Origin: a virus
Virus record (IMG/VR): IMGVR_UViG_3300008113_000317
Span: 1-36,231 of that record
Direction: 5' to 3' (one strand)
Length of the DNA: 36,231 bases
The position numbers were made by a program, and so were the translations under genes. Shown piece after piece: positions 7,281-36,231 of the stretch (position 1 is its first letter; the number at the start of each line of letters is the position of its first letter). A model generated the notes under the pieces. That model was not told the DNA's origin. It ran no database searches and worked only from the letters and a program-made list of their open reading frames with translations.

Positions 7281-8231
7281 ATGATCGGAGAACTATTTAC
7301 TGAAAAGTACAGACCAAAGAAACTTGAGCAGATGATCCTGCCCGAACGTATCCGCAAATCAATCGGAGACGGAGTGTTACATCAGAACTATTTGTTCTAT
7401 GGATCGCCAGGATTAGGTAAGACTTCTTTGGCAAAGGTGCTTGCAGCAAACTATCCTTTCTTATACATAAACGTATCCGATGAAAGTTCGGTCGACATCA
7501 TACGCGAGAAAATCACCAACTGGTGTTCTACCATCAGTCTTCTTGATGGCGCAGAAATGTTTAAGGTAGTCATTCTTGATGAGATGGACGGTGCTTCTGA
7601 CCAATTCTACAAAGCTCTTCGTGCCACCATCGAAAAGTTTGCAGCTACTGCTCGTTTCATAGGAACTTGTAACTATATCAACAAAGTTCCTGAGCCCGTT
7701 CAGTCTCGTTTTACTTGCATTAACTTTGACTTCTTAAGCAAAGAAGAAGAAAAAGAAGTTATGGTCGAGTTCATCAAACGCTCTTGGGCAATCTTTAAGT
7801 CATGTGGTATCGAAATCGAAAAGGACGCAATCGTCGAGTTCGTAAAAAGAAACTTTCCTGACATGCGTTCTATCGTGAACAAGATACAGACATTTGCGAT
7901 CCAAGGCGTCAAAAAGATCGAGGCAAATGATGTTAAGAAGCTGAACTACTCATTCCGCGATATCTTTGAAATGATATGTAAGTCAGGCGATCCTCAAGAG
8001 AACTATAAGTTTCTGATGACCAACTATTCATCAAAAGTTGACGATGTACTATTTGCTTTAGGAAACGAACTTCCTGACTACTTGAGAGACAATCAGCCTG
8101 CCAAGGTGGCTAAGATACCGCAGATCCTGATTAAAGTCGCACACTACCAATCACAGCGAGTTCATGTGATAGATCCAGCGATCTCTATGCTTGCCGCTGT
8201 GTATGAGTGCCAAATAATCCTAAATCAATAA
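7281..8231 (+). CDS. 44: sliding clamp loader large subunit, T4 gp44-like AAA+ ATPase
   Basis: The 316-residue protein loads the DNA polymerase sliding clamp on primer-template DNA using ATP. It opens with the clamp-loader motif FTEKYRPKKL and has Walker A GSPGLGKT (41-48), Walker B VVILDEMD with D100/E101, sensor 1 in GTCNYINKV (about 128-136) and the SRF motif (142-144) that supplies the arginine finger (the SRC motif of cellular loaders). The C-terminal half carries the helical lid and collar. T4 gp44 is 319 residues, nearly identical in length. A GAATATAAAC element at about 7254 may drive it, but matches the late motif poorly. T4 gp62, its small partner, is not recognisable next to it. 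Confidence 0.93.
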   Translation: MIGELFTEKYRPKKLEQMILPERIRKSIGDGVLHQNYLFYGSPGLGKTSLAKVLAANYPFLYINVSDESSVDIIREKITNWCSTISLLDGAEMFKVVILDEMDGASDQFYKALRATIEKFAATARFIGTCNYINKVPEPVQSRFTCINFDFLSKEEEKEVMVEFIKRSWAIFKSCGIEIEKDAIVEFVKRNFPDMRSIVNKIQTFAIQGVKKIEANDVKKLNYSFRDIFEMICKSGDPQENYKFLMTNYSSKVDDVLFALGNELPDYLRDNQPAKVAKIPQILIKVAHYQSQRVHVIDPAISMLAAVYECQIILNQ

Positions 8232-8234
8232 ATC

Positions 8235-8651
8235 ATGGTTACATTAGAGGACATTGTTTATGCCGCATACGAACATGGAATTAGAGAAGACTTGTTCATA
8301 GAAGTGGACAAGATCAAACATCTGCCAGAGAACAAGTACATATCCACGGTAGACCTCTACTATAAAGCATTTCAATCAGCAATTATGAAAAAGATGGAAA
8401 CTGAAAATATCGCAATAGAAACTAAAGAATGGACATCGGCGCTTGTAAAAAGTACGACGTACAACCCAATGTCTAACACCTTAACCGTAGAATTCAACAA
8501 CGGAAAGGTCTATGAATACAAAGAATTTGCCAAAGAAACGTATCAGGAATTCCTGGATGCTGAATCAAAAGGAAAATTCTTTCTTACAAAGATTCGTGCT
8601 GTCTACAAAGACACACCAGAAAAAGTAATCAAAGTTACACTTGAAGCATGA
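8235..8651 (+). CDS. KTSC-domain protein with an extra N-terminal helical domain
   Basis: Residues about 70-138 match the short KTSC domain: S-x-x-x-x-Y-(N)P-x-x-x-x-L-x-V-x-F-x-x-G-x-x-Y-x-Y, then VYEYKEFAKETYQEFLDAESKGKFFLTKI. The domain occurs alone or fused to nucleic-acid enzymes; its role is poorly defined. Residues 1-55 form a separate helical region (VTLEDIVYAAYEHG, DLYYKAFQSAIMKK). It starts 3 nt after the clamp-loader stop, the position T4 uses for gene 62, so the N-terminal part could be a diverged small clamp-loader subunit, but nothing in the sequence proves this. It overlaps the next gene by 4 nt (ATGA). Confidence 0.75.
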   Translation: MVTLEDIVYAAYEHGIREDLFIEVDKIKHLPENKYISTVDLYYKAFQSAIMKKMETENIAIETKEWTSALVKSTTYNPMSNTLTVEFNNGKVYEYKEFAKETYQEFLDAESKGKFFLTKIRAVYKDTPEKVIKVTLEA

Positions 8652-8893
8652 ACCGCGTATCAGACCTAAAGAACTACATTTCGTCAACGTATCCTGCTCT
8701 TTCAAAAGCAAAATTTGACATCGCCAAAATCGGCGCTAGAATCTACATTTACTTGGTGGACCGCCAAGGAAACCTGCAAAGAGAGCCGCTGTTCCGCGGA
8801 GCTCTTCCTACCGTGAATGAGCTTCCTGCTTTAAAGAAACAGCTCGAGGCTAACATCAAGGCAGTCATGGTCAAGTGGGAATACAATTGTTAA
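8648..8893 (+). CDS. small protein of unknown function (81 aa)
   Basis: Starts inside the stop of the KTSC gene (ATGA overlap at 8648-8651). It has a helix (VSDLKNYISSTYPALSKAKF) followed by a beta hairpin (RIYIYLVDRQGN) and a final helix. No family recognised. The stop codon lies inside the GTTAATAACT box of the next promoter. Confidence 0.65.
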   Translation: MNRVSDLKNYISSTYPALSKAKFDIAKIGARIYIYLVDRQGNLQREPLFRGALPTVNELPALKKQLEANIKAVMVKWEYNC

Positions 8894-8943
8894 TAACTAA
8901 TCACAAGTAAATTTGCTACTGTAAAATACATTGGTTAAATTTA
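8889..8943 (+). promoter_or_regulatory. Bacteroidota-type promoter with upstream GTTAATAACT box
   Basis: GTTAATAACT 8889-8898, TTTG 8912-8915, then 20 nt and TAAATTTA 8936-8943 (7 of 8 to TAnnTTTG). Spacing is identical to the copies at 5568 and 27135. It lies 16 nt before the RNase H start codon and overlaps the end of the previous gene. Confidence 0.8.
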
Positions 8944-8959
8944 CACTATAAATCAAAAT

Positions 8960-10066
8960 ATGAATCTTATATTCGACGGCAACTACCTTTTCTACAAAAC
9001 GCTATTCATCTTTGGAGGTTACGGCTCCAAAGGTAAAGTTCTGGAAGAAAAGAAAGAACAAGAAATGTTCATCAGAAAAGTCGCAACCGACTTTTCACAC
9101 GCTATCCGTACTTTCGGCAATCCCGACCGCATAGTTTTTACAATCGACTCTCGTTCGTGGAGAAAAGAAATCGAAATTGAGGACGGTGCATACAAAGGAC
9201 ATCGCGAAGAAAAGACTTCCACAATCGACTGGGACTCTTTCTATTCCTGTATGAACGAGTTTGGCGAGATCCTCAAAGCCAAAGGCATCATCGTGTCTCG
9301 CGAAGAACGCGCCGAAGGCGATGATCTTATGTACCTGTGGGCTCAGAAATTCTACGAAGAAGGACAAGACTCGGTTATCGTAACCGGTGACCGTGACTTG
9401 ACACAATGTGTTCAGTTCGATGGTAAAAACTTTGTGGTTGTCTACAACCCTAACTCTAAGAGCCGCAAGATCGTAGCTCCTGAAGGTTTTCAAGCTTGGC
9501 TCAAGAACGAAGAATACGATCTGTTCGACGCAAGCACTTATATGAACCGCAGCAAAGACCTAATCGTCGAAGCAACCAGCTCTGTTCCAGTCGAAGAAAT
9601 CGACCGCAAGTACATCATATTCGAAAAGGTAATCACTGGTGATGCAGGTGACGCAGTTCCACCGATCTGGTCCTGGACAAAAGAAGGCAAAACATTCCGA
9701 GTGACTGCTTCCAAAGCCAAACGAATGTACGACATTCTCAACATGGTAAAACCCGTCACTGATGTTTATGACTTGCCTAATCGCGCAGCAGAAGTTGCTA
9801 GCTCAATCGAGGCGACATGCAAACAATCAGCTCCTGCTGCAGTCATCAAGACAAGACTCGAGAGAAACCTTCAGTTGGTATTCCTCGATGATCGCATCTT
9901 ACCTACCGACATACAGGAGAAGTTCCGCTCTTCTTTCGACAAGGCTTGGGAGAACAAAGAGCTGGGAGCTCGCACATACGATATGAACGCTCTTCTTGAA
10001 GGCACTCGATTCGTCAGCAACGGACGAACCTTTGAAGCAGATATTTTCTCACAATTCAAATTCTAA
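8960..10066 (+). CDS. rnh: 5'-3' exonuclease / RNase H (FEN family)
   Basis: This 368-residue protein belongs to the flap-endonuclease family used by T4-like phages to remove RNA primers from Okazaki fragments. Metal-binding acidic residues are visible at D6 (FDGNY), D63 (TIDSRSWRK), E119/D121/D122 (AEGDDL), D144/D146 (TGDRDL) and D228/D231 (ITGDAGDAVPP), which is the full two-metal set, followed by the helix-hairpin-helix-like region. The basic RSWRK and the K-x-H-R at residues 79-82 match the helical arch. T4 RNase H is 305 residues; the extra length is mainly an insert at about 175-215 and a C-terminal extension. Driven by its own promoter at 8889-8943. Confidence 0.9.
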   Translation: MNLIFDGNYLFYKTLFIFGGYGSKGKVLEEKKEQEMFIRKVATDFSHAIRTFGNPDRIVFTIDSRSWRKEIEIEDGAYKGHREEKTSTIDWDSFYSCMNEFGEILKAKGIIVSREERAEGDDLMYLWAQKFYEEGQDSVIVTGDRDLTQCVQFDGKNFVVVYNPNSKSRKIVAPEGFQAWLKNEEYDLFDASTYMNRSKDLIVEATSSVPVEEIDRKYIIFEKVITGDAGDAVPPIWSWTKEGKTFRVTASKAKRMYDILNMVKPVTDVYDLPNRAAEVASSIEATCKQSAPAAVIKTRLERNLQLVFLDDRILPTDIQEKFRSSFDKAWENKELGARTYDMNALLEGTRFVSNGRTFEADIFSQFKF

Positions 10067-10068
10067 CT

Positions 10069-10239
10069 ATGAAAAAACTTTGGTTCTTTTTTTCAGCTAT
10101 CCTTACTGTGATAATCATGGTAGGTTTGGTTGGCACTCTTGTCTACTCGGCATACACATCAATTCCTGTCGAACAACTGATTGACTGGGACTGGTGGGCA
10201 TTGTTTCTTCTTGCTGAAATTTGGAAAATCGAAGAATGA
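10069..10239 (+). CDS. tiny single-pass membrane protein (56 aa)
   Basis: ATG at 10069 is 2 nt after the RNase H stop, and TGA 10237-10239 overlaps the next start (ATGA). Residues about 4-28 (LWFFFSAILTVIIMVGLVG and onward) form one transmembrane helix or uncleaved signal anchor; a second aromatic amphipathic segment IDWDWWALFLLAEIW follows. No family recognised. Its tight coupling on both sides supports real translation despite small size. Confidence 0.65.
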   Translation: MKKLWFFFSAILTVIIMVGLVGTLVYSAYTSIPVEQLIDWDWWALFLLAEIWKIEE

Positions 10240-10469
10240 TAGAAATAATAGGATGGATAGGAACAGCTGCTGTGTTGGCATCTTTTTTAATGAAAGACAT
10301 GCTAACACTGCGCTTAATGAATGTTGCTGCTTGTTTGATCTGGGTTTCATACGGAATGATTAAACAAGACATGCCTATCGTTGTCACCAACGGATCAATC
10401 ATAATGATACACTTACTTTGGTTTCATAAGAACTACAAACAATCAAAAGAATATAAACTACATGAGTGA
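10236..10469 (+). CDS. small membrane protein, YgjV-like
   Basis: The 77-residue protein has three predicted membrane helices: GWIGTAAVLASFLM, MNVAACLIWVSYGM and TNGSIIMIHLLWF. Order and key residues (G-x-I/W-G near the start, L-R-L-x-N before helix 2, hYG at its end, N-G between helices 2 and 3) fit the YgjV-type inner-membrane family, which is distantly like half-transporters of the SemiSWEET/PQ-loop type. Start set at ATG 10236, overlapping the previous stop; an earlier TTG would extend it by 5 residues without benefit. Role in the phage is unknown; altering the host membrane is possible. Confidence 0.65.
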   Translation: MIEIIGWIGTAAVLASFLMKDMLTLRLMNVAACLIWVSYGMIKQDMPIVVTNGSIIMIHLLWFHKNYKQSKEYKLHE

Positions 10470-10878
10470 TCTTTTCGGCTTCATAAACACAATGTTCTCA
10501 AAACCGGCTGAGTTTAAGAAGACCAAGATGCACGATCGTGCCAAGCACTTCTTTATGATCAACCGTTTCATGGCGATCAAACATCCAGTGCAGGCAAGCT
10601 ACTTCAACAATCTTAAGATCAATCCAGGCCAGGTCGTTACTTATTGGCAAGAGAGTTTAAGCAAGGTGTACAATCGAACTCCAGGGTGGATGTACGTCAA
10701 AACAGCTAAAGCAAAAGAGGCAAAGAAAAAAGAATCGCAGCCAGTATCTGACGAAGCAATCCGCTTATACTGCGAACATTACAAGATATCCCGCAGGGAC
10801 ATAGAAGAAGCTCTTCTCTTGGTAGGCAAACCTTTTGAAGATGACCTTCGTGGATTCGAAAAACTTATTTCCCAGTAA
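10462..10878 (+). CDS. conserved-looking protein of unknown function (138 aa)
   Basis: A basic, helical protein. Two segments look like conserved family blocks: HDRAKHFFMINRFMAIKHP (about 24-42) and INPGQVVTYWQ (about 52-62), followed by a lysine-rich linker and a C-terminal helical domain with SRRDIEEALLL. I associate this type of 'FFMINRFM-IKHP' sequence with replication regions of phages of this group, but cannot name a function; a diverged clamp-loader small subunit or DNA-binding accessory protein is possible. It overlaps the YgjV-like gene by 8 nt, and the sequence GAATATAAACTA at 10449-10460 just before its start resembles the late motif weakly. Confidence 0.65.
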   Translation: MSDLFGFINTMFSKPAEFKKTKMHDRAKHFFMINRFMAIKHPVQASYFNNLKINPGQVVTYWQESLSKVYNRTPGWMYVKTAKAKEAKKKESQPVSDEAIRLYCEHYKISRRDIEEALLLVGKPFEDDLRGFEKLISQ

Positions 10879-10897
10879 ACCGCTATCTAAGTAGGGA

Positions 10898-10905
10898 TAT
10901 ATAGA
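10898..10905 (+). promoter_or_regulatory. putative late promoter motif TATATAGA before neck-like gene
   Basis: GGGATATATAGAAAAAA at about 10894-10910, 28 nt before ATG 10926. It is among the best copies of the motif and the spacing (27-28 nt to the ATG) is shared with the copies at 19960, 21286 and 28263. Confidence 0.7.
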
Positions 10906-10925
10906 AAAAATAGTATCCCTAATAG

Positions 10926-12917
10926 ATGCAAGCCATACTTACGAGTCCAGGTGATTTTATCAAGTACACTCAGGACAAGCCTTTCTTATATGTTACAAAG
11001 CTCACTGGGTGGATGGACGACATCGCTGGTAGCGGCGTGTACAGGAAAGAGTTTCGTTGGGGCACATCAAACAGGGTAAGGTCTTCTTGGGTAGAACTGA
11101 CCAACAAGAATGTGACCGATGTGGTACTTAACGCTAATGACGATCTTTTTGTTGACTTTAGAGTAACATTGATCAGCGGAGGACCAATCACAATCAACAA
11201 CATTGAGATTACATACGAACAGGATCCTATCGCCAAAGATCCTTACATCGGGTTTGTTCCCGTCTATACTGTTGCCGACAAAGGTAACATTAGTAACATA
11301 ACAAAAGTTGAAAACTTTACATTTAGACCGTACCAAGTAAATCCTTTAGTGGTTCTTTACAAGGAACTTTCATTTACAGTCAATCAGCTATTTGGAATTG
11401 ATGTAATGTACGCCAGGGCAGTTCCTTTGGCAATAGGTAAAGATATCGTTTTGAACGAATGGAATCTGTACGATGTTGATGAACCAAAGTGCATCAAAGT
11501 AGTCGTACCCAACAATGAATTTCCTGACAGCAAGCTGTTGTTCAATCCGATGGGCGTTGACTTTGAAATGCCGTTTGAAGTACACATCACTAAGAATTAC
11601 TTTGAAGAATTGTTTGGTGTAGGCACAGCTCCGCAAAAGAGAGACATAATTTACATGCCTCTGGAGAACAGGGTATATGAAGTCGACAGTTCTTATCTTT
11701 ACAAAGACCTCATGAGAACTGAGATCTACTGGAAAGTGAGTCTTACGAAATACCAACCCAAAGCAAACCGCAAAGAAACACAAAACTTACGAGAAGAATT
11801 TGATGTTCTGACCACGAGCTACCAAGAAGAATTCCAAGAAGAACTCGACTTACTTGAAGTTAAGACCACTGATCCACAACAGTACGATCCTAAGATCGGC
11901 TCAAGAGACTACGATCCTACAAGACAAGACATCAATAACGATCTAATAATCTCACAGCTCAAAGTAAACAACTATTCTTTGCTTCTTTCTGAATCACAGT
12001 ATGACTTAAGATCCATCTTTACAGGAAAGGATGAAGTCGAGGCTGTAAAGTACAGAGCAAAAGTTGTACTTCCGACGACAGAAGAAAGATCGTTCTCTTG
12101 TTGGTTCAAAGAAATTCCCCCTAAACTTACAATACCTAAAGACAATGTCAAAGGCGGACTGATACTTGGTGCCGCAAGCGGAGACTATCAACAGCTGACT
12201 TTCAAACTTGCAGCAACTCGTAAGTACGTCGCAGGAGACATCATTAAGATCAATAAGTTTAACGGATTCTCTGTCTATGGTACATGGGTAAGTACTTCTG
12301 CAGTAGCAGGCGGGTACAACTACACCATATCCGTAAGAAAAGACATCATAGAATTTCTAAATCTTTACTACCCAAATTGGTCGGGACCGTCTGGTAGTGG
12401 TTACATAGCAGAAAAGACTTTTGAAAACATTGTCTTTAACGGTTATGATTCTGCATCAGCAAAAGGATTACGAATCAGTGTATTCGCAAGCAGATACTTT
12501 ATGATCATGAGAAATGGTGAATCATCGCTGTTCATCTTAAAGAACAACTTGGTACAAGATTATTGGTACGCACTTTTCATAAACATGTCGAACTTCTACC
12601 GACAGCTTTCATTGGACCTTTGGGTTCGTAAGTGGAACGAGACAAATCCTAACTCTCCACAAACCACCGACTTGGAGAATATATACAGTGCGGTACAGAC
12701 TATAGAACAGCTTGACCTATCCGTCGATAGCAACTATAACCTTCTTGCCGCAAATCTTGTAAGTACTAACATAAGACTGTACGATAAGATAGAGACCGAA
12801 CAAATTAAACAAGTGAACATGCTTAATCAGGCAATTGTACAAGACGCACAGTTCAGTATCATTATTGACAACGCAATTCCTAGATTGAAGTTACCTTGGA
12901 TAGCAAACACAAAATAA
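10926..12917 (+). CDS. large virion protein, neck (gp14-like) region plus extra C-terminal domain
   Basis: The 663-residue protein has a middle block, YFEELFGVGTAPQKRDIIYM then PLENRVYEV (about 225-255), followed by a strand ending in WKVSLTKYQPK. This is the layout of T4-like neck proteins of the gp14 type, where 'FG...P-x-x-GD-hhhhP...hYEV' is followed by a 'Y-x-h-x-L' strand. T4 gp14 is only 256 residues. Residues about 390-500 look like an added beta-sandwich: RSFSCWFKEIPP resembles the start of LamG/concanavalin-like domains, and later strands end in LRISVFASRYFMIM. The last 120 residues are helical. Its own late-type promoter and placement directly before terminase genes fit a neck or connector role. 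Assignment to gp14 is tentative. Confidence 0.5.
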   Translation: MQAILTSPGDFIKYTQDKPFLYVTKLTGWMDDIAGSGVYRKEFRWGTSNRVRSSWVELTNKNVTDVVLNANDDLFVDFRVTLISGGPITINNIEITYEQDPIAKDPYIGFVPVYTVADKGNISNITKVENFTFRPYQVNPLVVLYKELSFTVNQLFGIDVMYARAVPLAIGKDIVLNEWNLYDVDEPKCIKVVVPNNEFPDSKLLFNPMGVDFEMPFEVHITKNYFEELFGVGTAPQKRDIIYMPLENRVYEVDSSYLYKDLMRTEIYWKVSLTKYQPKANRKETQNLREEFDVLTTSYQEEFQEELDLLEVKTTDPQQYDPKIGSRDYDPTRQDINNDLIISQLKVNNYSLLLSESQYDLRSIFTGKDEVEAVKYRAKVVLPTTEERSFSCWFKEIPPKLTIPKDNVKGGLILGAASGDYQQLTFKLAATRKYVAGDIIKINKFNGFSVYGTWVSTSAVAGGYNYTISVRKDIIEFLNLYYPNWSGPSGSGYIAEKTFENIVFNGYDSASAKGLRISVFASRYFMIMRNGESSLFILKNNLVQDYWYALFINMSNFYRQLSLDLWVRKWNETNPNSPQTTDLENIYSAVQTIEQLDLSVDSNYNLLAANLVSTNIRLYDKIETEQIKQVNMLNQAIVQDAQFSIIIDNAIPRLKLPWIANTK

Positions 12918-31487: not shown

Positions 31488-31922
31488 ATGGCAGAAGTAG
31501 GTCTGATGAAAAACAGAGCGCAATACATAGAGAAGGTTATTCATTCCATCGATTGGAGAAAAATCAAATCTTATTACCGAAAGCTGGGTATCCGTTGGGA
31601 ATACCAAGAAGATAAAGAGACCGTCCAAAGGACACCGTCTGTTGCTGATTTGAAAGATGATTTCAGATCAATACTTTCGCACATGCTTGACCAAGAAATC
31701 AACTACATTTCTTATGGAAGTTGGATCGTGTTCTGGGACCGTGAAGACGGATCGCTTGGAGACATACGAGTCATTTTCAGGCTCGCTGATTTTGTTTTTG
31801 AAGAAGACAAAAAATCTGCACATAGCCTTGAAGAAAGACTAAGAAATGCAGTAGAGCGCGAAGACTATGAATACGCAGCAGTCATTCGAGACGAGATCAA
31901 AAATAACATAGGTATATCTTAA
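31488..31922 (+). CDS. unknown protein with C-terminal UVR-like motif (144 aa)
   Basis: The last ~30 residues (LEERLRNAVEREDYEYAAVIRDEI) fit the short UVR motif found in UvrB, UvrC and ClpC-type proteins, where it mediates protein contacts: 'L-x-x-x-L-x-x-A-x-x-x-(E)DYE-x-AA-x-hRD-x-I'. The rest (1-110) is mixed helix and strand with WDREDGSLGDIRVIFR-type beta segments and no recognised family. It lies 1 nt before the fibre gene. A role as fibre-assembly or attachment accessory is an inference from place only. Confidence 0.65.
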   Translation: MAEVGLMKNRAQYIEKVIHSIDWRKIKSYYRKLGIRWEYQEDKETVQRTPSVADLKDDFRSILSHMLDQEINYISYGSWIVFWDREDGSLGDIRVIFRLADFVFEEDKKSAHSLEERLRNAVEREDYEYAAVIRDEIKNNIGIS

Positions 31923-31923
31923 G

Positions 31924-34900
31924 GTGGCTACTGAAACAAATTTGATAACCTCCTTCGTTAGGAGAATAAGTAAGTATTTTCTTTCCGACACTGCGACCTG
32001 GTATAGACCTCGCAGCGTTGAACCTGGTTTAAACCACATAGACGATCCCACCGCTTTCGATGAAAAGACCATCTACAAGGGCGAAGAAATCGTCGATCTT
32101 GACAAAGGTCGCTTGTTCACACAGGACGGTGCAGAAATCATCGAACTAAATACCGATGACGCAATTCTTAACGGCTTACTTGTTAGAGAATCTGCTTCAC
32201 TTTCGGGAGGACCTCTTTGGCTAACTGTTGAATCAGGCTCTGCAAGAATCAACGGAAGAACTTACTGGCACAAGCAATCTGAAGCCAGCGGCGATATCCA
32301 AATTTCGCCGAATCCTAGCACGACTCAATCAAGAATCGATGTAATTACAATATCCAGCAATTACCCCGTTCCTGCTACCGGGGTCACTGGTATGCCCGCT
32401 AATGCAACAGAATACTCGGGACAGATAAATTACCATCAAGGAACCGCAAGTCGTCCAGGAAGACCCATCACATTCAAAGGAAACGTTACCAACGGATCCG
32501 ACATAATAACATTCTCTGGAGGAACAGGCGCTGTAAGTGGAATAAACGCGGGAGACATCATCGTCGGAAGTGGAATTGCTTCGCAGGCAACCGTCTTGGT
32601 AGTGACCACCACGCATATTCAGATAAGCACATCGTTTGCTTCTACCGCCAATGATGTTGCTTTTGCGATTGCGATAAATCTTTTAGGACAAGATATTGCG
32701 TTTTTTGCGTCTGGCTCTACAGGATCAAACGCTCTTACATTGATCGGAGGATCTACGCCGGCAGTTGGAGATTTGGTATACGGGTATGGTTTTGACTTTG
32801 GGACAGAAGTTACCAACGTTTCAGGATCCACAATAACAGTTTCAGAAAACTGTACAGTGGGTGGGGACAACATATATGGTCTAGGAGACGCTGCTGACGT
32901 TGCGATATACCAACCAATAATTATACCAGACGGTGAACTTGTTCTTGCTGCGGTTATCGTACCGCCTAATTACACAGGTGCGTCTGCGCAAAACAAATTA
33001 AGACCTTTTAGCGTTAGCCAGATATGGAAGACGTTTGGCATAGCCGCACAAGATGTTCCCACTATACTGGAGACTTTAAGACAAAGCGTATCATATTACA
33101 CAACTGACACATCTTACGCATCTGATCAAATAGTTATAGATCGCTTAACCCACGGGGTCTATCAAGTAGTACGAAATCATTACAGCTCTACATTGACTTC
33201 GTCCGTCTCCAACGGAGACATGATATCAGTGTCAAGCACCGGAGGCGGAGGAGGTGGGGGCGTAAGTACTTCAGGATCTTCAGGATCTTCAGGAACTTCA
33301 GGAACCTCGGGTTCTGGAACTTCTGGATCATCGGGAACTAGCGGTTATGGTTTTATTTGGCAAGGAACATGGAACATAGCAAACCCATACGCGCTAAATG
33401 ACGTTGTAGTCTACAACGGTGATGTATATGCAGCGATTGGAACAATTTTACCAGGAGGATCAACACCAGACATAAATCCTTCGTGGGACCTGTGGGTTGT
33501 ATCAGGATCAAGCGGATCATCTGGTTCTTCAGGAACTTCAGGAACCGACGGAACTTCAGGAACCGACGGAACTTCAGGAACCGACGGAACCTCGGGCACA
33601 AACGGAACTTCAGGAACCGATGGTACATCAGGGAGCTCGGGATCTTCAGGGACATCTGGGTCTTCAGGAACTTCGGGAAGCTCAGGAATAGATGGGACAT
33701 CTGGATCTTCAGGAACATCTGGTTCTAGCGGAACTTCTGGCACAGACGGAACCTCGGGCACAAACGGAACATCAGGCACAGACGGAACTTCAGGAACCGA
33801 TGGTACATCAGGGAGCTCGGGATCTTCGGGGACATCGGGATCTTCGGGGACATCTGGATCTTCAGGAATAGATGGGACATCTGGATCTTCAGGAACATCG
33901 GGCAGCTCAGGAACATCGGGCAGCTCGGGAACAGACGGAACATCTGGATCTTCAGGAACTTCAGGCAGCTCAGGAACTGATGGGACATCAGGGAGCTCGG
34001 GATCTTCAGGCACAAGTGGATCATCAGGAACTTCGGGAAGCTCAGGAACAGACGGAACTTCAGGATCTAGTGGCACAAGCGGATCTTCCGGAACAGACGG
34101 AACTTCAGGATCTAGTGGCACAAGCGGATCTTCCGGAACAGACGGAACGTCAGGATCTTCGGGAACGTCAGGAAGCTCAGGAACAGACGGAACTTCAGGA
34201 TCTTCGGGCACAAGCGGTTCTAGTGGAACAGACGGAACTTCAGGATCTTCGGGCACAAGCGGTTCTAGTGGAACAGACGGAACTTCGGGATCTTCAGGAT
34301 CTAGCGGAACTTCGGGCAGCTCCGGAACAGACGGAACTTCAGGATCTTCAGGCACAAGCGGGTCAAGTGGGTCAAGTGGGTCAAGCGGATCATCAGGCAC
34401 ATCTGGTTCTTCAGGATCTTCAGGCACAAGCGGATCTTCAGGCACAAGCGGATCTTCAGGAACTTCTGGTAGCTCAGGAATAGACGGAACTTCAGGATCT
34501 TCAGGATCTTCAGGCACAAGCGGATCTTCGGGAACATCAGGTAGCTCGGGTTCATCAGGAACATCAGGCAGCTCAGGAACGTCAGGATCTTCGGGAAGCT
34601 CGGGAACAAGTGGATCTAGTGGAACTTCTGGTTCATCAGGAACGTCTGGTTCTAGTGGAACTTCTGGTTCATCAGGAACGTCTGGCTCTTCGGGAACATC
34701 AGGGAGCTCTGGAACTTCTGGCTCTAGTGGATCTTCAGGCACATCTGGATCTTCAGGAACGTCAGGTAGCTCAGGAACGTCAGGTAGCTCAGGAACATCT
34801 GGTTCTAGCGGTTCTTCAGGAACTTCAGGTTCATCAGGCAGCTCGGGTTCATCAGGAACTTCGGGCAGCTCAGGAACTTCAGGATCTAGTGGAACTTCAG

Positions 34901-36231
34901 GATCTAGTGGAACATCAGGTAGCTCGGGTTCATCAGGATCCGCAGGAACTTCGGGCAGTAGCGGTTCTTCTGGCATCAGCGGTATAAGTGGAACCGACGG
35001 TTCCAGTGGAACATCGGGATCTAGCGGAACATCGGGATCTAGCGGAACATCGGGATCTTCGGGATCCAGCGGATCTAGTGGAAGCTCGGGTACCTCGGGT
35101 AGCTCAGGAACAAGCGGATCTAGCGGAACGTCAGGTTCTAGTGGATCATCAGGTTCTAGCGGATCTTCAGGTAGCTCAGGATCATCAGGATCATCAGGCA
35201 GCTCAGGAACAAGCGGATCTTCAGGCAGCTCAGGAACAAGTGGTTCATCAGGATCCAGTGGTTCATCAGGATCCAGCGGTACTTCAGGAAGCTCGGGCAC
35301 ATCGGGATCGTCAGGATCGTCAGGTACGTCTGGCTCTTCAGGATCCAGCGGAACCTCAGGTAGCTCAGGAACTTCAGGATCCAGCGGAACCTCAGGTAGC
35401 TCAGGATCATCAGGGACTTCAGGCAGCTCAGGATCATCAGGCACTTCAGGATCTTCGGGCACGTCAGGAATATCAGGTGTTGATGGAACTTCAGGCACAT
35501 CAGGATCGTCAGGATCTAGCGGCACAAGCGGATCATCAGGAACTTCTGGTTCTAGTGGAACATCAGGCAGTTCGGGCACGTCAGGATCTTCGGGCAGCTC
35601 TGGATCATCGGGTAGCTCGGGAACTTCAGGATCGTCAGGTAGCTCAGGCACTTCAGGATCCAGCGGAACCTCAGGTAGCTCGGGAACTTCAGGATCATCA
35701 GGATCATCGGGCAGCTCAGGAAGTTCAGGATCATCGGGATCATCGGGCAGCTCAGGATCATCAGGCACCTCAGGATCTTCGGGCACGTCAGGATCTTCGG
35801 GCACGTCAGGTAGCTCAGGAACGTCAGGTTCTTCGGGATCATCAGGTACATCGGGGAGTTCAGGATCTAGCGGCACAAGCGGGTCTTCAGGAACTAGCGG
35901 TATTTCAGGGGTCGATGGAACTTCAGGAACCAGTGGTTCTAGCGGATCATCTGGCTCAAGCGGATCTAGTGGCACAAGTGGTTCTTCGGGATCCTCGGGA
36001 TCCTCGGGCACGAGTGGTTCTTCAGGATCATCGGGTTCTTCGGGTTCTTCAGGAACCAGCGGAACTTCTGGTTCTAGTGGCACATCAGGTAGCTCGGGAA
36101 CTTCGGGTTCTTCGGGATCCTCGGGCACAAGCGGATCATCCGGTTCTTCGGGTTCTTCGGGTTCTTCAGGAACCAGTGGAACTTCTGGTTCTAGTGGCAC
36201 ATCAGGCAGTTCGGGCACATCAGGCAGTTCG
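31924..36231 (+). CDS. giant collagen-like tail fibre / adhesin, open at the window end
   Basis: From GTG 31924 (one nt after the preceding stop) the frame is open to the last base, 1436 codons without a stop, so the gene continues past the window. Residues 1-80 resemble fibre attachment regions (GRLFTQDGAEIIELN). Residues about 80-440 are beta-rich, with two copies of a 'VGD/AGD-hh-G-x-G-(I/F)...G-x-x-V-x-x-V' unit near 200 and 280. A Gly7 run and first GSSGTSG repeats start near 440. Residues 479-527 form a carbohydrate-binding-like module (W-x-G-x-W...Y-x-x-x-DVV-x-Y-x-G-x-x-Y-x-A...W-x-L-W). From about 527 to the end are collagen-type Gly-X-Y triplets, mainly GTS, GSS and GTD. The likely role is a long flexible receptor-binding shaft. 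No signal peptide is seen; the GTG start is the first possible after an in-frame TAG at 31909. Confidence 0.85.
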   Translation, partial: MATETNLITSFVRRISKYFLSDTATWYRPRSVEPGLNHIDDPTAFDEKTIYKGEEIVDLDKGRLFTQDGAEIIELNTDDAILNGLLVRESASLSGGPLWLTVESGSARINGRTYWHKQSEASGDIQISPNPSTTQSRIDVITISSNYPVPATGVTGMPANATEYSGQINYHQGTASRPGRPITFKGNVTNGSDIITFSGGTGAVSGINAGDIIVGSGIASQATVLVVTTTHIQISTSFASTANDVAFAIAINLLGQDIAFFASGSTGSNALTLIGGSTPAVGDLVYGYGFDFGTEVTNVSGSTITVSENCTVGGDNIYGLGDAADVAIYQPIIIPDGELVLAAVIVPPNYTGASAQNKLRPFSVSQIWKTFGIAAQDVPTILETLRQSVSYYTTDTSYASDQIVIDRLTHGVYQVVRNHYSSTLTSSVSNGDMISVSSTGGGGGGGVSTSGSSGSSGTSGTSGSGTSGSSGTSGYGFIWQGTWNIANPYALNDVVVYNGDVYAAIGTILPGGSTPDINPSWDLWVVSGSSGSSGSSGTSGTDGTSGTDGTSGTDGTSGTNGTSGTDGTSGSSGSSGTSGSSGTSGSSGIDGTSGSSGTSGSSGTSGTDGTSGTNGTSGTDGTSGTDGTSGSSGSSGTSGSSGTSGSSGIDGTSGSSGTSGSSGTSGSSGTDGTSGSSGTSGSSGTDGTSGSSGSSGTSGSSGTSGSSGTDGTSGSSGTSGSSGTDGTSGSSGTSGSSGTDGTSGSSGTSGSSGTDGTSGSSGTSGSSGTDGTSGSSGTSGSSGTDGTSGSSGSSGTSGSSGTDGTSGSSGTSGSSGSSGSSGSSGTSGSSGSSGTSGSSGTSGSSGTSGSSGIDGTSGSSGSSGTSGSSGTSGSSGSSGTSGSSGTSGSSGSSGTSGSSGTSGSSGTSGSSGTSGSSGTSGSSGTSGSSGTSGSSGSSGTSGSSGTSGSSGTSGSSGTSGSSGSSGTSGSSGSSGSSGTSGSSGTSGSSGTSGSSGTSGSSGSSGSAGTSGSSGSSGISGISGTDGSSGTSGSSGTSGSSGTSGSSGSSGSSGSSGTSGSSGTSGSSGTSGSSGSSGSSGSSGSSGSSGSSGSSGTSGSSGSSGTSGSSGSSGSSGSSGTSGSSGTSGSSGSSGTSGSSGSSGTSGSSGTSGSSGTSGSSGSSGTSGSSGSSGTSGSSGTSGISGVDGTSGTSGSSGSSGTSGSSGTSGSSGTSGSSGTSGSSGSSGSSGSSGTSGSSGSSGTSGSSGTSGSSGTSGSSGSSGSSGSSGSSGSSGSSGSSGTSGSSGTSGSSGTSGSSGTSGSSGSSGTSGSSGSSGTSGSSGTSGISGVDGTSGTSGSSGSSGSSGSSGTSGSSGSSGSSGTSGSSGSSGSSGSSGTSGTSGSSGTSGSSGTSGSSGSSGTSGSSGSSGSSGSSGTSGTSGSSGTSGSSGTSGSS
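33358..33504 (+). other. CBM5/12-like carbohydrate-binding module inside the fibre
   Basis: Residues about 479-527 of the fibre. The aromatic pattern W-x-G-x-W...Y-x-x-x-D-V-V-x-Y-x-G-x-x-Y-x-A, then G-x-x-P...W-D-L-W, is that of small chitin/cellulose-binding modules of the CBM5/12 type. It is flanked on both sides by Gly-Ser-Thr repeats, which argues for a separately folded module on a flexible shaft. Confidence 0.6.
33505..36231 (+). repeat. collagen-like Gly-X-Y coding repeat (9-nt based)
   Basis: Over 2.7 kb the + strand reads as Gly followed by two of Thr/Ser/Asp/Asn, e.g. GTSGTDGTSG, GSSGTSGSSG. Rare departures are GID (about 33685, 33865, 34477), GSA (about 34936), GIS (about 34972, 34981, 35467, 35899) and GVD (about 35476, 35908). 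There are near-exact longer duplications, such as a 117-nt copy linking about 36034-36098 with 36151-36215. Asp-bearing GTD triplets are frequent up to about 34350 and scarce afterwards. Confidence 0.9.

Follow-up and report, generated by a model that had tools for sequence, protein, structure and literature searches.

The question raised by this locus is what kind of protein is specified by a viral gene whose frame stays open to the end of the contig and is filled with glycine-periodic triplets of Ser and Thr. The window (the whole stretch of DNA that was analysed) corresponds to one IMG/VR virus record and is 36,231 bases long. The open reading frame starts with a GTG at 31924 and, as an earlier note on this DNA had stated, runs to 36231 without a stop (1436 codons). 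The gene and its immediate surroundings are divided into the following parts:

31488..31922, plus strand: small upstream gene of 144 aa with a UVR motif (PF02151); its stop adjoins the fibre GTG
31924..33273, plus strand: conserved N-terminal domain, residues 1-450, presumed to fix the fibre to the virion (13 relatives aligned, AF2 model, synteny)
32467..32883, plus strand: two tandem beta modules within the N-terminal domain, residues ~182-320 (alignment gaps, likeness to 8eci_1)
33274..33318, plus strand: first, short Gly-X-Y stretch of 5 triplets
33367..33495, plus strand: CBM 5/12-like insert, residues 482-524, absent from L003 (Pfam PF02839, phrog_5073)
33505..36231, plus strand: Pro-free Ser/Thr collagen-like shaft of 303 Gly-X-Y triplets, cut by the contig end
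33411..36218, minus strand: spurious antisense open frame of 935 codons, no gene (codon redraws)

The antisense frame had rightly been called false. When the codons of the fibre were redrawn with its amino acids kept, this frame stayed free of stops in all 200 redraws for each of two codon usages, and it is therefore an automatic by-product of the codons. The GTG of the fibre gene follows immediately after the stop of the upstream gene, an arrangement that is common to several orthologues. The 144-aa upstream protein scores above the cut-off of PF02151 (E=1.5e-6, 28.2 bits vs 21.5). A gene with this UVR (UvrB/UvrC) motif occupies the same place in nine of the ten related loci compared, and none was detected in the closest relative (L014/L016); its product may help to assemble the fibre or may have an unrelated role.

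The window, which covers part of the genome of a jumbo-type myovirus, also carries genes for portal, head closure, terminase and tail sheath. The last two have their nearest counterparts in uncultured huge phages, Lak phages, Flavobacterium phage MaF61 and Tenacibaculum phage PTm1, and this proximity suggests that the host is probably a member of the Bacteroidota. The gene thus lies among virion structural genes, as judged from the window genes and the conserved gene order. It is best explained, with a probability of roughly 0.78, as a fibre gene of the tail/baseplate region of such a phage, composed of an anchor, a trimeric collagen-like shaft that has grown by duplication, and a C-terminal head that lies out of sight. 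The N-terminal domain of ~440 residues would fix the fibre to the particle, and three chains would wind into a very long collagen-like shaft. The head beyond the contig would nucleate the folding of the trimer, set its register and meet the host. The shaft would lengthen by local in-frame duplication in multiples of nine bases, and selection would keep Gly at every third place with Ser, Thr and Asp between. The collagen-like virion fibre that had been proposed earlier is supported by the structural genes of the window, the conserved gene order and the matches of the shaft to tail-fibre PHROGs.

The N-terminal domain aligns with 13 relatives at 36-72% identity, and its AF2 model has a mean pLDDT of 83.8. 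The two beta modules are missing from the shorter domains of L142/L156 and L135/L158, where the alignment shows gaps. Residues 262-321 resemble the phage decoration protein 8eci_1 (sequence E=0.011; structure probability 1.00 over 67 columns). The complete domain matches no PHROG family at E<=0.1, which separates it from the PHROG tail-fibre families that recognize the shaft, no Pfam or PHROG family above cut-off, and no PDB entry at E<=0.001 in Foldseek (best 0.019). In BFVD, 20 matches are found at E<=0.001, headed by a protein of Indivirus whose name refers to collagen repeats, but their TM-scores are 0.10-0.26 (query length) with an rmsd of 15-43. Two queries against 50,697 phage records gave no match, and none of 11 pattern stretches in genome contigs was confirmed. 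The role as an anchor is presumed from the position of the domain, not from its fold.

The conserved ~440-aa domain is present at the same locus in the window and in 17 IMG/VR loci, and the upstream gene order is conserved among the family loci. With the tail tube as marker, 80 loci were collected, and of the 78 that had not been searched before, 48 were then searched over their full length for Collagen, which matched in 19 of the 48 at E<=0.001 (16 above the family cut-off). A profile built from nine family members raised the total to 17 loci, that is, 18 members with the window. L002 and L003, in which the domain is 72% identical to that of the window, are one virus assembled twice (100% identical across 18,728 bases), and both stop inside the repeat at different points. 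Seven of the 18 members are complete at 801-1072 aa (L145, L147, L150, L151, L152, L155 and L159; L147 and L159 give an identical 919-aa result). Their C-terminal parts are of several unlike kinds, which argues that the heads are swapped. They have 5 to 59 triplets and contain Pro in all cases except L155; with the orthologous shafts short and mostly Pro-containing, the long Pro-free shaft is specific to the lineage of the window. The remaining 11 members run off their contigs, six of them, the window included, inside the Gly-X-Y repeat, and several family contigs end at the fibre gene because of repeats. The contig of the window ends within the shaft, and the seven complete members make a head beyond it expected; the earlier reading that the gene runs off the end of the contig is supported, and a C-terminal head is present in relatives. 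The head of L147 is present in 3 of 14 records and not in the relative virus.

No contig beyond the break was found when viral sequences were scanned twice, with patterns of 35 and 36 bases taken from the end of the window, and no such gene is located at the far end of the 238-kb relative or at the start of L015. None of the 120 listed loci with Ser/Thr shafts described below resembles the missing part: the number of 27-mers in common is at most 15 for the window shaft (in L210) and at most 3 for L003. L015, a 49-kb relative contig, begins with an EEEDSE-type low-complexity repeat (positions 1-250), and both of its ends are repeats.

The shaft (residues 528-1436) is a single unbroken run of 909 residues, which agrees with the more than 900 residues of nearly exclusively Thr, Ser and Asp triplets noted before. 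All 303 first positions are Gly, and Gly is found at none of the 606 X and Y positions. The triplets are GSS (162), GTS (112), GTD (17), GIS (4), GID (3), GTN (2), GVD (2) and GSA (1). Thr accounts for 43.2% of X and is absent from Y, Asp accounts for 7.1% of Y and is absent from X, and more generally T/I/V are confined to X and D/N to Y. Charge is limited to 22 of 909 residues, all Asp. Pro is absent not only from Y, as had been pointed out, but also from X. The Gly-X-Y run is not a product of chance: Pfam Collagen matches the protein with E=6.6e-122, and the Gly-X-Y domain of phage collagen-like tail fibres is present. The PHROG tail-fibre and "collagen like minor tail" families phrog_5073, phrog_6320 and phrog_1806 match the shaft (phrog_5073 with E=2.2e-118, a kind of value that low-complexity repeats inflate). 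The PDB matches are collagens picked by the Gly register, and the three alignments shown have Pro-rich chains. Only in the form of an extended triple helix would the shaft measure ~260 nm at 0.286 nm per residue as a lower bound, in line with the predicted hundreds of nanometres.

Bases 1 and 2 of the Gly codons are invariant and the third base has an entropy of 1.59 bits, which indicates that the glycines are held fixed and that silent sites are scattered. Repeated 31-mers cover 231 positions of the shaft vs 0.34 expected after shuffling of synonymous codons; the shaft therefore grows through local duplications that keep the frame and then change at silent sites.

Shafts of this type are common in viral sequence collections, and the gene itself is ordinary. 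A scan of viral contigs for 15 consecutive Gly-[ST]-[ST]-type triplets gave at least 120 stretches; 116 of the 120 listed were confirmed by script, 109 of these 116 with less than 1% Pro, and the 116 represent 107 non-redundant groups. Among the matches listed, 30 of the 116 loci have both ends of the frame and over 50 residues beyond the shaft. L242 carries 546 triplets and L189 a complete 3412-aa frame with 590. In LR756501.1, an uncultured huge phage of 735 kb, a frame of 3488 aa is complete and contains 848 triplets, in which Thr predominates in X (659) and Ser in Y (683). Since the shafts of 590 and 848 triplets are complete, the window gene is neither alone nor the largest, and the very large size for which it had been singled out is not special. 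Behind such shafts, 59 C-terminal tails were searched (from 58 of the 116 scanned loci, and L130). Among the matches listed, Peptidase_S74, a chaperone of trimeric fibres, occurs in 17 of the 59, and tail-fibre PHROGs are matched by many, a single one of them by up to 16. PF01391 was found in two of the ten published relatives searched (0/3 and 2/7) and nothing in the other eight.

The genome of LR756501.1 was manually curated to completion, according to Al-Shayeb et al. 2020 (PMC7162821). Its giant Ser/Thr genes resemble the window gene in having mostly Thr in X and mostly Ser in Y; the giant gene differs in its N-terminus, and its record is unannotated. The word collagen is absent from the main text of that paper as far as the available part extends. 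Collagen-like phage fibres are known, and the Ser/Thr variant, which lacks Pro and reverses the X/Y preferences, sits unannotated in public records such as LR756501.1; the literature searched contains no description of Pro-free Ser/Thr phage shafts, and subscription papers could hold one. The shafts of LR756502.1 are of a different type, with Thr/Gln in Y. Two plus-strand Collagen matches in LR756501.1 (~394651-395039) contain one and two in-frame TGA stops, and are possibly antisense matches or written in another code.

The X/Y preferences of the Ser/Thr shafts are reversed compared to known collagens. In the 116 listed loci (24,909 triplets), Thr makes up 46.1% of X and 4.9% of Y (per-locus means 0.455 and 0.075), and Asp 0.2% of X and 2.9% of Y. 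Thr is more frequent in X than in Y in 106 of the 116 loci and otherwise in 10, and Asp favours X in 8 loci vs 66 with the opposite preference. Because the scan pattern makes no distinction between X and Y, the search did not create this bias. The family to which the window gene belongs shows the opposite preferences in nine Pro-type members (702 triplets), where Thr makes up 2.7% of X and 49.3% of Y, and Asp 8.1% of X and 0.6% of Y. In Table 4 of Ghosh et al. 2012 (PMC3368898), Thr ranges from 0.1 to 3.1% in X and from 2.8 to 48.3% in Y among collagen groups. The composition of known collagens (Pro frequent in X, Thr in Y, Asp/Glu in X) is not that of the window.

The closest described systems are EPclA and EPclB, side-tail proteins of E. 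coli O157 prophages, as far as the consulted part of Ghosh et al. 2012 (PMC3368898) describes them. Like the window gene, they combine an N-terminal domain with a Gly-X-Y shaft, like its relatives they carry a C-terminal domain, and like the window fibre they have no preference for Pro in Y. EPcl shafts differ in that Pro fills 48% of X, charged residues are numerous and Thr is placed in Y, whereas the window shaft has no Pro and has Thr solely in X. Trimers and a triple helix were demonstrated for EPcl. No coiled coil was noticed in the window fibre, and its N-terminal domain has no Pfam or PHROG match above cut-off. By the same table, Y without Pro is normal for phage and bacterial collagens. 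The earlier expectation that the helix would be stabilised differently from animal collagen is therefore partly supported: the feature on which it was built is ordinary in such collagens, and the unusual ones are X without Pro, scant charge, and the reversal of Thr and Asp.

A triple helix is not assured with reversed X/Y preferences, no Pro and little charge, and the Ser/Thr shaft could instead adopt a glycine-periodic non-collagen fold, such as a polyglycine-II-like bundle, with a rule of its own (Thr/Ile in X, Ser/Asp in Y). Such a fold would account for the Thr bias in the listed loci, for the opposite preferences of Pro-type shafts on the same N-terminal domain, and for the missing Pro and low charge. 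It is nevertheless unlikely, as both types stand behind one N-terminal domain and occur within single unbroken runs. Mixed runs (at least 4 Pro-type and at least 8 Ser/Thr-type triplets) number 7 distinct cases among 664 Gly-X-Y runs, the 664 not being de-duplicated. In the clearest, L185, one unbroken run of 213 triplets passes from the Ser/Thr to the Pro type with the Gly register intact. Although seven runs are few, their kept register favours a triple-helical fold that both types would share.

A broader conjecture, rather unlikely on present evidence, is that Pro-free Ser/Thr shafts with reversed preferences (Thr/Ile/Val in X; Ser/Asp/Asn in Y) form a separate class of glycine-periodic fibres, widespread in uncultured phages, whose rod would be held without imino acids, charge pairs or hydroxyproline, possibly in a non-standard fold. 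Bacteroidota O-glycosylation, which uses a D-S/T motif, was rejected as a stabiliser, as this motif occurs 0 times in the window shaft. The tested phage collagen-like fibres in the part of the literature consulted for comparison are rich in Pro or charge. A direct test of what keeps a collagen-type rod stable is provided by natural Gly-Thr-Ser shafts that are long, lack Pro and have the opposite X/Y preferences, and L185 offers both chemistries in one unbroken run of one protein.

For the collagen-like fibre, the length of the repeat could be wrong through short-read assembly, since 6 of 18 family contigs end within the repeat and L002 and L003, two contigs of one virus, break off at different points of it. 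Such an error is highly unlikely, because any exact repeat in the window shaft is shorter than 71 bases and long Ser/Thr shafts are complete within other contigs (L189, L130 and the 735-kb phage). That the stretch is a disordered, flexible tether from anchor to head and not a rod is very improbable: the charge is very low and Gly/Ser/Thr-rich sequence is typical of linkers, but a tether would have no need for Gly to recur 303 times at a strict spacing of three residues while staying out of X and Y, nor for the confinement of T/I/V to X and of D/N to Y.

The insert ahead of the shaft matches PF02839 with E=0.028 in the whole protein and E=0.0019 alone, at 18.6 bits vs the Pfam gathering cut-off of 26.2, which places it outside CBM5/12 proper. 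It also matches the tail-fibre family phrog_5073 (E=5.6e-6). The AF2 model of the insert is unusable (pLDDT 44.9), and phmmer found 0 matches to it in the loci collected. As judged from its sequence, the CBM5/12-like insert may touch glycans. The glycan binding that was suggested earlier is thus weakly indicated, its sole hint being an insert that scores below the curated cut-off.

A second collagen-like fibre gene lies directly after the complete orthologue in L131 (7257-10766, equal to L147 12778-16287; 1169 aa) and in L133 (6228-10241; 1337 aa). L130, a 202-kb relative, encodes a different fibre (7712-12112, minus strand) with a short N-terminus, ~391 Ser/Thr triplets, recurring GIGTHG breaks and a C-terminal head that matches tail-fibre PHROGs; a Gly-X-Y run of at least 5 was present in none of five published proteins resembling this head (five of 7 matched records). 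In L152, a long repeat that resembles an antifreeze/ice-binding beta roll (residues 471-1072) replaces the long shaft and matches LbR_Ice_bind with E=3.7e-6, below its cut-off. LbR_Ice_bind is also found in one of the 59 tails behind Ser/Thr shafts, with E=1.4e-10 (among the matches listed).
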